Assembly (NCBI GenBank): GCA_020349025.1
Contig: CP070763.1
Coordinates: forward strand, 2,003,427-2,067,426
Source of the DNA: Candidatus Latescibacterota bacterium
GTDB taxonomy: Bacteria > Krumholzibacteriota > Krumholzibacteriia > G020349025
Length of the DNA: 64,000 nt
Reading direction: 5' to 3'
A program made the translations under genes and the position numbers. Below the pieces are notes generated by a model. It was not told where the DNA came from and made no database searches. It worked only from the letters and a program-made list of their open reading frames with translations. Below, in pieces: positions 3,626 through 60,768 of the stretch (its first letter is position 1; every line of letters begins with the position of its first letter).

Positions 3626-4027
3626 AAGCCCGAGCTCGAGTATCCGGATGCTCTCTTCGAAAACCCGGGCTTCGGCAACCATTGGCTCGGCGTGAAGCTG
3701 GTGGGAACGCGCTCCAACCGCTCTGCGATCGGGGCGCGGATTCGTGTCGACATCGTCGAGGAGGGAACGAGGCGCTCGCTCGTCCGTCACGTCACGAGCG
3801 GCGGCAGCTTCGGGTGCAATCCGCTGCGCCAGCACATCGGGCTCGGCAAGGCGAGCTCGATCACCAAGCTCGAGGTCTTCTGGCCGACGAGCGGTGAGAC
3901 GCAAACCTTCGAGCAGATGCCGCTGGATCACAGCATCGAGATCACGGGGGGGCAGTCGAACTACCGAACCCTCGAGCTTCACCCCGCCACGTTCCGCGCC
4001 GCGCAAAGCCAAGAGGACGCGCCGTAG
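3626..4027 (+). pseudogene. Remnant of an ASPIC/UnbV-domain (CRTAC1-like) protein
   Basis: The open frame encodes NPGFGNHWLGVKLVGTRSNR, followed by IGARIRV and a domain ending near LELHPATFR. This is the ASPIC/UnbV module normally found at the C-terminus of long secreted FG-GAP proteins. Everything N-terminal is missing: in this frame the upstream sequence to the TGA at 3443-3445 shows no FG-GAP repeats and no convincing start with a ribosome binding site. The first in-frame ATG (3692) falls inside the domain. I read it as a 5'-truncated gene rather than a functional short protein. It runs towards the selenoprotein gene and stops inside a terminator-like hairpin. Confidence 0.6.
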
Positions 4028-4063: not shown

Positions 4064-5275
4064 TCACTCGCCCGATTCGCCCGTTTCGCCCGACTGCTCC
4101 GCCAGCAGCTTGCGGAAACGCTCGAGCTGCTTCGGGTAGTACTCCGAGTCGGGATCTTCCTGAATGGCGAGCTCGATGAAGTAGACCGCGTCCTTGCAGC
4201 TCCCACGCGCGTTGCAGATCTCCGCCACCGTATCGAGGATCATCGCCTTGCTCTTGCCGTTGTCGGCCAGCTCCACACCCTTGCGGGCGAGAGTGTCCGC
4301 CTCTTCCAGGTTGACGTTGTTCTCGAAGCACCACCACGCGAAGCCATTGAGGCTGTCGGCGTCCTCCATCCAGCCGTCGTCGTACGTCGCCTTCTTGTAG
4401 GCCACCGCCTTCGCCTCGTCATGCTCGACGAAGAGTGCATGATCCACCTGCAGGCGCGTGCGCTTCTTCTGGATGCTCTCGTCTTCGGCCCCCTCGGTTT
4501 CCCGCATCGCAAGCTCGAGGTACGGAACCATGATCGTGGCATCGTCCTTCTTGCGTCCGAGTGACGTCATCATCCCCGCGACGTTGGCCACGTCCTCGAC
4601 CGAGCGCCCCTCGAAGGCCAACGCCGCGTCGGCGGCGTTCTTGGCGTCGACCGTCTTGAAGTCGTCCTGGTACACACCCCAAGTCGTGTTCTGGAAGATC
4701 TCGTAGCGGAAGTCCTTGTCGCTGCTGCCACGCAGCGTCTGCGCTCTCTGGTACCACTCCACGGAGGAGTGGAAGTCCTCCTTCGTCTCGTAGAAGGTGG
4801 CCAGCTTCGCAGCATCGTTCATGTTGGGGTTCGACTCGTAGCGCGCTCGTTTCTGATCGATGGTCGTGGGATCCTTCACGCCGGAGTCGAGCGTCGCGAT
4901 GAATTCCGCGGCCTCGCCGTATCCCCACCAACGTTCCACGGTCTCCCCCTTGGCGTTCGCCAGCAGGAAGGTGGGATACCCCTCGATGCCGTACTCCTTG
5001 GCGAGCTCCTTCCCCTCACCTTTTTCGGCATCGAGCTGGAGGAATACGACGCGTCCGAGTGCTTTCTGCAGCTCTGGGAGAGTGTCCACCTCACGGGTGA
5101 ACTTCTTACAGGAGCTTCACCACTCGGTGTAGAAGTCGAGAAGCAGGAGCGCATCGTGCTCGGCCGCAGCCTTCTTCGCCTCGGCGAAGTCCGTCGGCGC
5201 GTGCGTTGACTGCGCCATGGCTGCCGCCGGCACCAGAAGCGCGGCGAAGAGGATCAGCCGGCTCGTGAGCTTCAT
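4064..5275 (-). CDS. Exported thioredoxin-like selenoprotein (Sec53) with C-terminal helical repeats
   Basis: The reading frame is 404 codons with one internal TGA at 5117-5119. Residues 1-21 form a signal peptide ending AMA, so the protein is exported. Residues about 46-52 read LDFYTEW, then TGA, then SSCKKFTREV. This is the thioredoxin active site with TGA exactly where the first Cys of WCxxC belongs. Downstream, GIEGYPTFLLANAKG gives the cis-Pro loop. Residues about 150-390 are helical, TPR-like repeats. TGA is read here as selenocysteine (codon 53) because the frame stays open and domain-like on both sides and a SECIS-like hairpin follows. If not, it is two truncated ORFs (5275-5117 and 5089-4064). 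ATG 5275 has AAAGGA upstream. Likely role: periplasmic thiol/disulfide or peroxide chemistry (inference). Confidence 0.8.
5084..5116 (-). promoter_or_regulatory. Candidate bacterial SECIS element downstream of the in-frame TGA
   Basis: Reading the minus strand from the base after TGA, 14 bases precede a stem GTTCACC (5102-5096), a 5-base loop CGTGA (5095-5091) and the other arm GGTGGAC (5090-5084), 7 pairs including one G-U. The loop starts 21 bases after TGA and has G as its second base. Known bacterial SECIS elements have a small apical loop about 16-37 nt from UGA with a G in the first two loop positions. An outer AGCTC/GAGCT pairing (5116-5112 with 5074-5070) may extend it. Confidence 0.6.
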
Positions 5276-5395: not shown

Positions 5396-8300
5396 TTACG
5401 CCAAGCGCAGATAAGCGCGAAGCTGCGGCGGGACGCGGCGCCTCACGAGCGCTTGTCGCACCTCCCACTCCGTTCCGGGAGGCGGCTGCGTGAGGAAGCG
5501 CACCTCGCCGGCGACGCGCACTGCGATTGGCACGCCGTCGCGGTAGAGAACGCGGTTGCGCGTGTGCGCCGGCACCCGCTCGCCCGGCGTGACGATGCCC
5601 ACGAGGTTGAGTGCATCGGCTGCGCTCACCGAGAGCATCTGGCCATCGAGCGGTGTGCGGCGCACGCGTCGCAAGGTCTCCACGGCTTGCGGGAGCGCAA
5701 ACTGCTCCCCCGTGAAACTGGAGACGAAGCGGCCGCCGCGGATCTCACCCCGCGCTTCCATCCTTCGCAGGAGGCGCAGAATGTCGCGCCACTGAGGGAT
5801 CGCCGGCTCGCGTTCGATCATGCGACGGAAGAGGACACCGTAGCGCCGCAGCAGCGTGCGCGCGACGTGCTCCACCGACTCGGAGGCCAGCTCCGCTGCG
5901 CCCTCTTCCGGCGCGGTGCCGTGCTGCACCAGAACCCAGCGCCCCGCGTCCTCGACGCCGAAGCGCGCCAGCGCGCGCCGGCGTTTCCCCCCCCCGCGCA
6001 ACGGCCGCCGCCGGTCCGATGGCACGAGCAGCGCGCGCAAGCCGGTGAAGCCGTCGGCCGACACGCGACCACAAGCCACGAGCTCACCCAGAGCCGATTC
6101 CACCTGGGTGTGCAGCAGACCGCTTCCCCGCACGATGTCGTCGAAGAAACACGCACCGCGCTCGTGAAGCAGGGTCTCGACCGCACGCGCTTCGGGCGAG
6201 CGCTGCGGGGTGTCCGCGCCCTCGGCCGTCGCGGATCGCCATGCCGGCACGTGCTGCCTCGGCAGGAACGTGATCGGCGTCGTGCGTACGGGACCCGACG
6301 TGCGCGCACGCCCCGTCCCACGCTCTGCGCCTTGGCCGTTGCGCCCCTTCGGAGGGGAGAGGCGCGTCCACACGAATCGACCCGAGAGACACAGCGAGTC
6401 GAGCCAGGCTGGATCGTAGTCGGCGACGCGTGCCGGCAGGATCTCCGCTTCCCACGCGGCCGCCGCCGCCTCGAACCCTTCCAGCTGCTCCAGGACCGCC
6501 GCGACAGCGCTCGCTCCCTCCGCTTCGGCGTCGGGAAGGACGCGCTGCCATTGCAGCAGAAAGCGCATGTAGTCCGCCGGTGTCACCGGCTCGATCTCGC
6601 TTCGCAGCCGCTTCAAGGTGTAGCGGTGGATGCGCGCCAGGAGGCGCCGGTCACACCACTCCTCGGTCGCCCCACCCGGCGTGAAGCGGCCGCGAAGCGC
6701 GAACCCCTCCGACTCGAGCGCCGCAAGCGCCGTGTCGATGCGCGCGCTCGGCACTCCGAGCGACGTCGCCAGATCGTGCACGGTGACCGGTCCCAACCCT
6801 TCCAGGCGACTGCGCACGATCTCCACCAACGCCGTTTCGGCAGACCACTGCGTGGCACGCGCGCACTCGGGCGGTGCAATGTGCGGCTCGAGTCGTGCGC
6901 TCGGGAAGAGTGCCGCAAACTGGGGCAAGCGTTCCGCCGCCACCCACAGCCGCAGTTCGTCGCCGCCGCCGATCGACAGCGTCGTCACGCGATGCTCCGT
7001 CGCCAGCTGTTCGAACTGCGATTGCCAGCTGCGCCCCTCTGCGGCCGTCAAGAAGCCGTAGAGCACCAGTGCGTCGTGCAGCTCGTCGTAGCTTTCGACC
7101 TGGGGCCAGATCTCCTCACGCACGCGGTCGATCGCCGCTTGGTCGAGCGCACCGAGGTCGGCCGCCGTCTCCGGGTCGAGCCAGCGCCGACTCAGAACCG
7201 CCTGGGTCCGGCGCTCTTCGAGTGGTGCGTCGTCGAGAAACGCGTACGGTCGGGCGTTGAGGATCTCCTGCGACAGGGGTGAGGGCTCGCTCACGTCGCG
7301 AGCAATGACTTCGATCTCACCGGCAGCGATCGCCCGAAGCAGCGACTCGAGACGCTCGACGTCCATCGCTTCTTCGAGGCAATCCCGAATCGTCTGCTGC
7401 ACGAGCGGATGCTCGGGTACTTCGCGATCTCCGGGCAGATTCTCTGCGCACGCGACCTGATCGGGGAAGACGACGGAGAGCAGGTCCTCCGACTGAATCC
7501 GCGTCAACTGCGGCGGCACGCGGCGACCGCCGCTGAAGCGCAGCACCGCCAGGCTGCGCGTGCTGTTCCAACGCCAGCGCACGGCGAACATCGGTGCCGC
7601 CAGGAGTGCTTGCACCAGGACGTCGCGCAGCGTCGCCGCGTTGAGGTAGCGAGCAACATCCGCGAGCGCAAAGCTGTGTGTCGGACCCAAAGAGATGACG
7701 ATGGCATCCTCGGTGGCTGCCGCCTGCAGCTCGATGTTGAACTTGCGGCAGAAGCGCTTGCGCAGCGCCAGCCCCCAGGCACGATTGATGCGACTGCCGA
7801 AGGGTGCGTGCACGACGAGCTGCATTCCACCCGTCTCGTCGAAGAAGCGTTCGAGGACGATGCGTTCCTGCGTCGGCATGGCACCGAGCGCCGCCTGCGC
7901 CGCAGCTAGATAGTCCACGATCTGGCGCGCCGCCGCGGGTGCAAGGTTGATCTCGTCGACGAGCCAGCGGCACGATTCGAGCGACAACGCTTCGCCCTGG
8001 CTCGCCGCGTCGGGACCGGCACGGTCCGGGTCGATCACCGCCGCCGCGTCCGAGGCCATGCGTGTCGCCAGCTCCTCGCGCAGGCGTGAGACGGCGAGTG
8101 AGAGCTCGACGCTGCGCCCCGGCGCCTCGCCGAGCCAGAACGGGATGCTGGGGGGTTGCCCCTTTGCATCCTCCACCCGAACGCGCCCCGGCTCGACGCG
8201 GCGAATCAGCCAGGAGGCGTTGCCGAGCTGGAAGATGTCGCCCGGCATGCTCTCGACCGCGAAGTCCTCGTTGACGCTGCCGATGAAGGTCCCGGTGGGA

Positions 8301-9829
8301 TCGAGGACCACCTGGTAGTCCGCGTTGTCGGGGATCGCGCCCCCACACGTGATCGCCGCGAGGCGTGCGCCGCGGCGTGCGCGCAGCCGGCCGTTCACCG
8401 CGTCACGGTGCAGGTGCGCGCTGCGACGCCCGCGGCGGGTGCTGAAGCCGTTGGCGAGCATCGTTACGACCGCGTCGAAGTCGTCGCGACTCAGGTCGCG
8501 GTACGGGTGGGCGCGGCGGACGAGCGTATACAGCGCCTCTTCACGCCATTCCTCGCACGCCACCGCGGCGACGATTTGTTGCGCCAGGATGTCGAGCGGT
8601 TGCTCGGGGATCACGAGCTGGTCGAGCTCGCCGCGGCGGATGGCGTCGACGAGCGCCGCGCACTCCACGAGCTCGTCGCGGCTCAGCGGAAAGAGCCTGC
8701 CTTTCGGGATGCGTCCGACCCCGTGGCCGGAGCGCCCGACACGCTGCAGGAGGGTGGCAATCGAGCGCGTCGATCCGAGCTGGCACACGAGGTCGACGTC
8801 GCCGATGTCGATGCCGAGCTCGAGCGACGCGGTCGCAACGAGAGCCTGCAGGTGCCCCTGCTTGAGGCGTTGCTCGGCGTGCAGTCGATGCTCGCGCGAG
8901 AGGCTGCCGTGGTGTGATGTGACGTTCTCCGGGCCGAGTCGTTCGCTCAGGTGACGCGTCACGCGCTCCGCCAGGCGCCGTGTGTTGACGAAGAGGAGCG
9001 TCGTGCGGTGCTGCGTGATCAGCGCTGCCAGCCGGTCGTAGATCTCCTCCCACACCTCACCCGACATCACTGCCTCGAGGGGCGACCCGGGAACCTCGAT
9101 GGCGAGGTCGAGCCGGCGCGCATGACCGCTGTCGATGATCGTGCACTCCGGCCTCTCGTCGGCGCTCACGTTGTCGCGACCCACCAGGAAGCGAGCCACC
9201 TCGTCGATCGGACGCTGCGTCGCCGAGAGTCCGATGCGCACCAGCTTGCGCCCGCAGAGCGCTTCGAGACGTTCCAGCGTCAACGCCAGGTGGGAGCCAC
9301 GCTTGCTGCCCACGAGAGCATGGATCTCGTCCACGATCACGCTGCGCGTCGTTCTCAGCATCTCGCGGCCGCGCCGGCTCGTGAGCAGGATGTAGAGAGA
9401 CTCCGGTGTCGTGACCACGAGGTGGGGCGGGCGCTTCACCATCGCTTCGCGTTGCGACGCCGGCGTGTCGCCGGTGCGCACGAAGACGCGAACCTCGGCG
9501 TCCGCGTCGCCACGCGTCTCGAGCTGGGCGCGGATGCCGGCCAACGGCTCCTGCAGGTTGCGCTCGATGTCGTTGCTGAGTGCCTTGAGCGGCGACACGT
9601 AGACGACCTGCGTTTCGTCCGCAAGCGTTCCTGCCTGCGCCTGCTGCACGAGTGAATCGATGGCGGCGAGGAAAGCGGCGAGCGTCTTGCCGGAGCCGGT
9701 GGGGGCCGCGATCAGCGTGTGGCCCGCAGCGTGGATCGACGGCCACGCCTGCGCCTGTGGCACGGTTGGAGACTCGAAGCGGCTCGCGAACCACTCACGA
9801 ACCGCTGGATGGAAGAGTTCCAGACTCAT
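5396..9829 (-). CDS. lhr: Lhr-family ATP-dependent DNA helicase (large)
   Basis: 1477 residues, the full length of the long bacterial Lhr type. The N-terminal superfamily 2 core shows APTGSGKT (Walker A, about residue 45), [13 protein letters not shown] (DEIH box), GLSATQRP (motif III), [10 protein letters not shown] and QRVGRSGHG (motifs V/VI). A winged-helix/Lhr-core region and a long C-terminal Lhr-CTD follow. Lhr enzymes unwind nucleic acids in DNA repair. ATG 9829 ([10 protein letters not shown]) is chosen because similarity begins there; the frame stays open upstream to 9967 but with Arg-rich non-protein-like sequence. It stands alone, diverging from the gene at 9933. Confidence 0.93.
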
Positions 9830-28051: not shown

Positions 28052-28792
28052 TCACACCTCGCTCGAGGGGCAGAGATCGTTCAGAACACAGGCGTCGCAC
28101 CGGGGCCGGCGCGCCACGCAGACCCGGCGTCCGTGCTCGATGAAGAGGTGCGCAAGCTGTGTCCACTTGCTTCGTGGAACGACCTCCATGAGGTCGAGCT
28201 CGATCTTGTTCGGCTCCTTCTGCACTGTCAAGGACAGGAGCCGCGAGATGCGTGTCACATGCGTGTCCACGACGACCCCGGGGATCCCGAAGGCATTCCC
28301 GAGGACGACGTTCGCCGTTTTCCTCCCGATCCCGGCGAGCTGGACAAGGCTCTCGAGGTCGGCCGGCACCTCGCCGCCGTGCCGCGCCACGAGCTCCTGG
28401 GCGCAGGCGACGATGCTGCGCGCCTTGTTGCGGAAGAAGCCGGTGCTGCGGATCTGCTCCTCGACCTCTCCAATCTCCGCTTCGGCGAGGGCGAGCGCCG
28501 TCGGGTAGCGCTCGAAGAGCGCCGGCGTCACCTTGTTCACGCGCGCATCGGTGCACTGCGCCGACAGGATCGTGGCAACGACGAGCTGGAGCGGGCTGTC
28601 GTAGTCCAAAGAGCAGCGGGCGTCCGGATACTCACGCTCGAGCCGCGCCAGGATGGTGCGAGCGCGGCGCTTCTCGGCGGCCAGATCGCGCTCGGGCTTG
28701 GCGCCTCGCGCGCTCCTCTTGCGGCCGGAGCTTTGCTTTCTCGTGCCGCCGGCGTGCGCGGCGCGCGCGGCACGTGCTCGCTTCGCCTTCAC
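28052..28792 (-). CDS. nth: Endonuclease III, DNA glycosylase/AP lyase
   Basis: 246 residues starting at GTG 28792. The first 35 residues are Lys/Arg/Ala-rich; the glycosylase core follows. LAGIGRKTANVVLG is the helix-hairpin-helix with the catalytic Lys, and GVVVDTHVTR supplies the catalytic Asp. CVARRPRCDACVLNDLC (Cys spacings 6, 2, 5) is the C-terminal [4Fe-4S] loop. It excises oxidised pyrimidines and cleaves the abasic strand. The GTG overlaps the polX stop as GTGA, so the two repair genes are translationally coupled. The frame stays open upstream, but that part is the shadow of polX. Confidence 0.95.
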   Translation of the reverse strand: MKAKRARAARAAHAGGTRKQSSGRKRSARGAKPERDLAAEKRRARTILARLEREYPDARCSLDYDSPLQLVVATILSAQCTDARVNKVTPALFERYPTALALAEAEIGEVEEQIRSTGFFRNKARSIVACAQELVARHGGEVPADLESLVQLAGIGRKTANVVLGNAFGIPGVVVDTHVTRISRLLSLTVQKEPNKIELDLMEVVPRSKWTQLAHLFIEHGRRVCVARRPRCDACVLNDLCPSSEV

Positions 28793-59730: not shown

Positions 59731-60768
59731 ATGCAGCGTAGCTCCAGCGCTCCGCTCAGAAGAGGGCGGGCCCGCTCGGCTGTCGCGACGCTTGCCGACC
59801 TGGGTGAGATGCGCCTGATCGAACGCCTCGGGTCACTCCTCCCGCGCGAGCCGGGTTGGGTGGTGGCGGGCCGGGGCGAGGATGACACCGCCGTGCTCGA
59901 AGGTCCCGGACGCCATCTCACGCTCTTGACGTGCGACGTCCAGGAGGAGGGGCGCCATTTCGAGCGTTCCTGGATCGACCCTCGAACCCTCGGGCGGCGC
60001 GCCGCGGCGGTCAACTTGAGCGACATCGCAGCCATGGGTGGGGAGCCGCGCGTGGCCCTGGCGTCGCTCATGCTGCCGGCCGATCTGGAGCTGCGATGGT
60101 TCGATGGCATCCTGCGCGGGCTCGGAGAAGGCCTCGCGGCCTACGGCGCCGCGCTCGTCGGCGGGAATCTGTCGCAAACGGCGCAGCGGCTCGCCATCGA
60201 CATCACCCTCTTGGGTCGTGTGACACGTCGGCGCCTCACACGCCGCCGGGGCGCGCGCCCCGGGGACCGCATCCTGGTGACGGGATGGCCGGGAGAAAGC
60301 GCCGCAGGTCTGGCTCTCCTGCAGGCGCGTGCGCCGCGCGGCAAGCTGCAGCGACGTCATCTCGAGCCGGAGCCTCGAGTGCGAGCCGGGCAGGCGCTCG
60401 CGGCGGGCGGGGTGACGGCAATGATCGACATCAGCGACGGCATCGCCACCGATCTCAGCCACCTGTGTGACGCGAGCGGTGTCGACGCGGAGGTCGATCT
60501 CTCCGACGTGCCGGTCTCCGGGGTGATGCGGCGCGCGGCGACCCGTCTCGGTGCCGAGGCCCACGCCTGGATCCTGAACGGCGGTGAGGCGTACGAGCTC
60601 CTCTGCACCGCTCCACCCCGTCGCGTCGCACGCTTGCGGCGAGCGCTCGGCGACCTGCCTCTGACCGATATCGGGGTCGTCCTCCCCGCACGCTCCGGAC
60701 GCTGGCTCCTGCACGACGCCGATCGCCACCCGCTGCGCACTGGCGGCTACGAGCACTTCGCACGCTGA
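59731..60768 (+). CDS. thiL: Thiamine-monophosphate kinase
   Basis: 345 residues. GRGEDDTAVLEGPGRHLTLL and CDVQEEGRHFERSWIDP are the N-terminal ATP/Mg blocks; NLSDIAAMGGEPRVALASLM is the AIRS-type core motif, GDRILVTGWPGESAAGL the linker and MIDISDGIATDLSHLC the C-terminal metal-binding motif. It phosphorylates thiamine monophosphate to the diphosphate cofactor. ATG 59731 has GAGGTG 6 bases upstream; about 25 residues precede the usual ThiL start (MRLIERL), so an ATG near 59809 is a second candidate. The next gene is 159 bases downstream. No other thiamine genes are present. Confidence 0.93.
   Translation: MQRSSSAPLRRGRARSAVATLADLGEMRLIERLGSLLPREPGWVVAGRGEDDTAVLEGPGRHLTLLTCDVQEEGRHFERSWIDPRTLGRRAAAVNLSDIAAMGGEPRVALASLMLPADLELRWFDGILRGLGEGLAAYGAALVGGNLSQTAQRLAIDITLLGRVTRRRLTRRRGARPGDRILVTGWPGESAAGLALLQARAPRGKLQRRHLEPEPRVRAGQALAAGGVTAMIDISDGIATDLSHLCDASGVDAEVDLSDVPVSGVMRRAATRLGAEAHAWILNGGEAYELLCTAPPRRVARLRRALGDLPLTDIGVVLPARSGRWLLHDADRHPLRTGGYEHFAR

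Follow-up and report, generated by a model that had tools for sequence, protein, structure and literature searches.

A catalogue of 2026 lists 119 families and subfamilies of selenoproteins, among them thioredoxin-fold proteins with a UxxC site entered under PF00085 or PF13098 (Table 1 in PMC13188914), and makes no mention of TPR in any of the 119. A literature search combining tetratricopeptide and selenoprotein returned nothing relevant. Trx7/PDZ (NF041199) and the rhodanese/DsbD fusion TsoB (NF045694) resemble the protein described here in being thioredoxin-like Sec proteins that carry a second, fused domain. No NCBIfam model is described as having a thioredoxin-TPR architecture. When this protein was compared to the NCBIfam selenoprotein models none scored above its curated cut-off, and the TsoB model gave a weak local match (3e-7, 28.8 bits against a cut-off of 805). 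For the RNA signal, the bacterial SECIS model requires a loop of 3–9 nt with a G in the first two loop positions on an upper stem of 4–16 bp (PMC13188914), located 16–37 nt from the UGA and with an MFE of −7.5 or lower (PMC13188914).

The window, i.e. the whole stretch of 64 000 nt that was analysed, includes on its minus strand a reading frame at 4064–5275 that begins with ATG (5275–5273), ends with TGA (4066–4064) and contains a single internal TGA, at 5117–5119 (ATG...TGG TGA AGC TCC TGT AAG...GAG TGA from 5275 to 4064). When the internal TGA is read as Sec the product is 403 aa long, its homologues are full length, and the active site is W-U53-S-S-C56-K, a UxxC site with the resolving Cys56 encoded at 5110–5108. 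The Pfam models Thioredoxin (3.5e-14, 53.1 bits) and Thioredoxin_2 (7.8e-14, 52.3 bits), PF00085 and PF13098, both score above their curated cut-offs over residues 36–130 and span the TGA; together with Pfam, the alignment and the predicted fold define a thioredoxin domain of residues 28–134 (4874–5194) that has a CxxC-type site and a cis-Pro loop, GYPT. Pro101 is invariant in the alignment and the frame on either side of the TGA is conserved in 30 aligned homologues, bearing out the proposal in the initial annotation of one continuous thioredoxin-fold protein across this codon. TGA 5117–5119 falls within a single exported protein, where it occupies the first position of the thioredoxin CxxC site. 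The putative signal peptide (MKLTSRLILFAALLVPAAAMA, followed by Q; 5213–5275) was recognised by eye, and one relative (L037) has a lipobox in the corresponding place.

The remainder of the protein, residues 136–403 (4067–4870), is predicted to form a TPR superhelix. An AlphaFold model built with 30 homologues (mean pLDDT 94.9, pTM 0.87) consists of a thioredoxin domain followed by such a superhelix. In Foldseek searches the N-terminal part retrieved 2kuc, the C-terminal domain of DsbD and thioredoxins, and the C-terminal part retrieved consensus TPR superhelices, the best PDB matches being consensus-TPR proteins (E 8e-7); no PDB entry among the matches listed covers both parts well. Since Pfam TPR models remain below cut-off (TPR_12, 16.9 bits against 30.1), TPR is a structural assignment, backed by the clearer TPR-like repeats of the Cys-containing relatives. 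The TPR-like C-terminus originally put at about 240 residues is thus retained as to its nature and lengthened to about 265 residues, 136–400. An NxxAWFC...LDTLAE motif also ends the 375 aa product, by eye a DUF1028-type hydrolase, of a gene outside the window, at 7605–8732 of locus L073 on the plus strand (G000:C1:825604-826731), which suggests that this tail is a mobile module.

The signal peptide, the UxxC site, the cis-Pro and the DsbD-like thioredoxin domain all point to a thiol-disulfide oxidoreductase of the envelope, and we are highly confident that it is a genuine selenoprotein with a thiol redox role in the envelope. In the mechanism we propose, SelB carrying Sec-tRNA would bind the hairpin directly 3′ of the UGA (5119–5117) and Sec would be inserted at residue 53, after which the protein would be exported by its own signal peptide. 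There, as a periplasmic reductase, it would use its thioredoxin domain to reduce disulfides (or sulfenic acids) of client proteins, with Sec53 attacking to give a mixed selenenylsulfide that Cys56 resolves, and the oxidised Sec-Cys pair would most likely be re-reduced by the transmembrane reductase DsbD. The TPR superhelix may hold the client or a partner, and is the natural candidate for partner binding. The reductive direction, DsbD as donor and client binding by the TPRs are inferred, and for these specific details the balance is only somewhat in favour. A Cys-type DsbD is encoded in the genome at G000:C1:2560802; its gene is not adjacent and the donor assignment is therefore a guess. More tentatively, and with rather less than an even chance of being right, the family could be an undescribed one and a principal conserved exported selenoenzyme in a bacterial class that is represented here largely by draft genomes and has tRNA-Sec almost universally, the TPR part bringing a specific set of envelope clients to a DsbD-fed Sec reductase.

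The alternative that survives best accepts the selenoprotein and gives it another job, as a reductase in an envelope peroxide or sulfenic/methionine-sulfoxide pathway or as a disulfide isomerase. Sec at the attacking position would suit peroxide-resistant chemistry, and the thioredoxin domain is similar to PDI domains and to 2kuc, not only to DsbD. However, Pfam detects neither a peroxiredoxin nor an Msr domain in it and no conserved neighbour points to a peroxide, Msr or isomerase role, and we consider this reading unlikely, though well short of negligible. The neighbours of the homologue loci differ and there is no operon partner conserved across families; as nothing is shared, the neighbourhood assigns no function by association. 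An amidohydrolase-like gene is nearby in nine loci (L053, L058, L059, L060, L062, L064, L066, L067 and L068), in several of them just upstream of the selenoprotein gene and on the same strand. In the window, a 111 aa frame at 3692–4027 (plus strand) comprises a UnbV_ASPIC domain alone and is probably a remnant of a longer FG-GAP/UnbV protein.

Machinery for Sec insertion, which the initial annotation had wanted sought in the source genome, is present there. The 3.84 Mb genome, a single contig, encodes tRNA-Sec (76 bits; called by ARAGORN as tRNA-SeC, anticodon TCA), SelB (375 bits), SelA (509 bits) and SelD (392 bits), all four above curated cut-offs; those of the three proteins were reached by only one or two of 14 control genomes and that of the tRNA model by five of the 14. 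A tRNA-Sec match above cut-off was found in 72 of 80 genomes of the class. The SelD gene (L016; G000:C1:1552743-1553666, minus strand) itself has one in-frame TGA, within the motif HGAGUACK, and SelD is thus very probably a selenoprotein too. An AIR-synthase family protein (Pfam AIRS and AIRS_C) is encoded in the window at 59851–60537 on the plus strand (L017) and matches SelD in part, at 88.8 bits, which is below cut-off. A second likely selenoprotein is located outside the window (L106; G000:C1:2385000-2387200), a weak AhpC/TSA (Prx-like) frame with one TGA at about position 960 of the locus (LRHLRULPCREH) and a strong hairpin (−23 kcal/mol) after it. A second TGA in the window, at 28054 on the minus strand, was considered as a Sec codon and rejected: it follows a Cys-rich tail which, by eye, looks like the end of an endonuclease III-type protein, and is hence a normal stop.

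A bacterial SECIS element was located at 5069–5119 on the minus strand. The 51 nt from the UGA fold with −19.0 kcal/mol (z −3.06), a stability that no sequence in 200 shuffles equalled; when upstream bases were included in a 61 nt fold, z was only −1.0. The apical hairpin consists of 7 bp (5102–5096 with 5090–5084) closed by a 5 nt loop, CGUGA (5095–5091), that starts 21 nt after the UGA, and it agrees with the published bacterial model (PMC13188914). In aligned genes the loop, as CGUGA or CGUGC, is kept without gaps in all 25 Sec genes, and neither the Cys nor the Ser copies have it. These 25 genes all encode the Arg in the loop by CGT, a codon used for only 36 of the 454 (8 %) Arg residues elsewhere in them, counts that come from related sequences and are not independent trials. 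This codon bias indicates that selection acts on the RNA. Four of the Sec genes found later (L070, L071, L075 and L097) share the loop, L099 has CGGGC, and L072 folds with a longer stem over a CCCGUGGGG core. Pairing reaches 96 % in the 200 cells of the helix, against 37–58 % when the partner strand was slid as a control, and one pair occurs as GC, CG, AU, GU and UG in different genes. Strict double-sided covariation is confined to one pair, and most of the variation affects one side only, as the region is also protein-coding. A generic bSECIS hairpin with a 6 bp stem follows 282 of the 1207 TGA triplets in the window and is common by chance, so that proof rests on the conserved geometry and not on the presence of a hairpin; the exact geometry occurs at only two of the 1207. 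A search of the window with Rfam returned nothing above threshold. When a SECIS covariance model was run against the genome in which the gene lies, the thioredoxin-TPR gene was the only convincing match, and the next matches, in no credible selenoprotein, were discarded.

These data bear on whether the TGA is instead a true stop, with either a short N-terminal peptide or a product starting at GTG 5089 being made. A 341 aa ORF does begin after the TGA, but Cys56 and some of the thioredoxin fold would be missing from its product, the stretch from the TGA to the GTG is conserved both as protein and as SECIS, and the genome has the Sec machinery; we regard this reading as very improbable.

A search of 289 related genomes recovered approximately 35 full-length homologues (29–44 % identity), nearly all with one internal TGA, and the set was later enlarged by five genes and then by one more. 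The initial annotation had asked what homologues carry at residue 53 and took a non-redox residue there as counting against Sec. Among 38 homologous thioredoxin-TPR genes, including the one in the window, 31 have TGA, about thirty of them in other uncultured bacteria and in all cases at the identical active-site codon, and five have Cys (L024, L027, L028, L034 and L076), so the expected TGA or Cys is found with the exception of one Ser copy (L030), while one gene (L098) is broken at the site. The Ser copy, for which the same mode of catalysis would not be expected, occurs with a Sec copy in a single genome, G285 (loci L030, WSYSC, and L099, WUAAC). More distant relatives with the same order of domains have CGPC or CGWC at the site. 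As the genomes of the Cys copies retain tRNA-Sec, their state cannot be put down to loss of the system. On the tree the Sec state needs three changes (bootstrap range 2–4), which is compatible with one or several origins of Sec. In G001, the single other genome of the same family that was examined, there is no comparable homologue (best match 1.9e-6). A scan of the genome contigs for named relatives found only four distant thioredoxin matches because the peptide patterns it used assume Cys codons. As standard gene callers either end the frame at the TGA or begin it downstream, mis-annotation of the family is likely across the whole group.

An accidental replacement of a Cys codon, through sequencing error or in a pseudogene, needs a change of only one base (TGA versus TGT or TGC), and one homologue, L098, is broken at its active site. 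However, 31 homologous genes from different genomes share an in-frame TGA at the identical codon together with a hairpin, missing from the Cys copies, which excludes chance, error and a pseudogene, and we give this explanation hardly any weight. Decoding of the UGA as Trp or through general suppression, for which the open frame and nothing further speaks, is the least credible of all, given that the site is occupied by Cys in the Cys-type relatives, that TGA also terminates this gene, that tRNA-Sec, SelA, SelB and SelD are all encoded and that the SECIS is specific to the TGA copies. Sec at the nucleophilic Cys position of a UxxC site, as originally claimed, is supported by the machinery, the conserved TGA and the TGA-specific hairpin, and we infer from sequence evidence that selenium is incorporated at residue 53.

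With respect to DsbD, the protein shares the fold and the DFYxxWCxxCK signature of the C-terminal (gamma) domain, but Sec replaces the first Cys and there is no membrane domain; Pfam found no DsbD_TM match. The exported Cys-type proteins L077, L078 and L080, in which the thioredoxin domain is like PDB 2kuc, have the same domain order, the conserved NxxAWxC TPR motif and the C-terminal tail, whereas their site is CGPC or CGWC with no in-frame TGA there. In NF041199 and NF045694 the motif is CxxU or UxxxxU and the partner domains are different (PMC13188914), and the window protein has UxxC. With Sec, Cys and Ser versions of one protein occurring naturally in related genomes, what Sec offers over Cys in an envelope reductase can be tested directly. 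The catalogued UxxC entries described as Trx or thiol:disulfide interchange protein have the thioredoxin fold and an N-terminal Sec in common with the window protein (PMC13188914), and differ by description in that the thioredoxin domain of the window protein is fused to a TPR superhelix of approximately 265 residues, which the catalogue does not mention (PMC13188914); the PF13098 entry could contain thioredoxin-TPR selenoproteins (PMC13188914). The best reading of the sequence is hence that of a new architecture or subfamily among the thioredoxin-fold UxxC selenoproteins, set apart from the catalogue entries by description, which would add a Sec-TPR architecture to the known selenoproteins.
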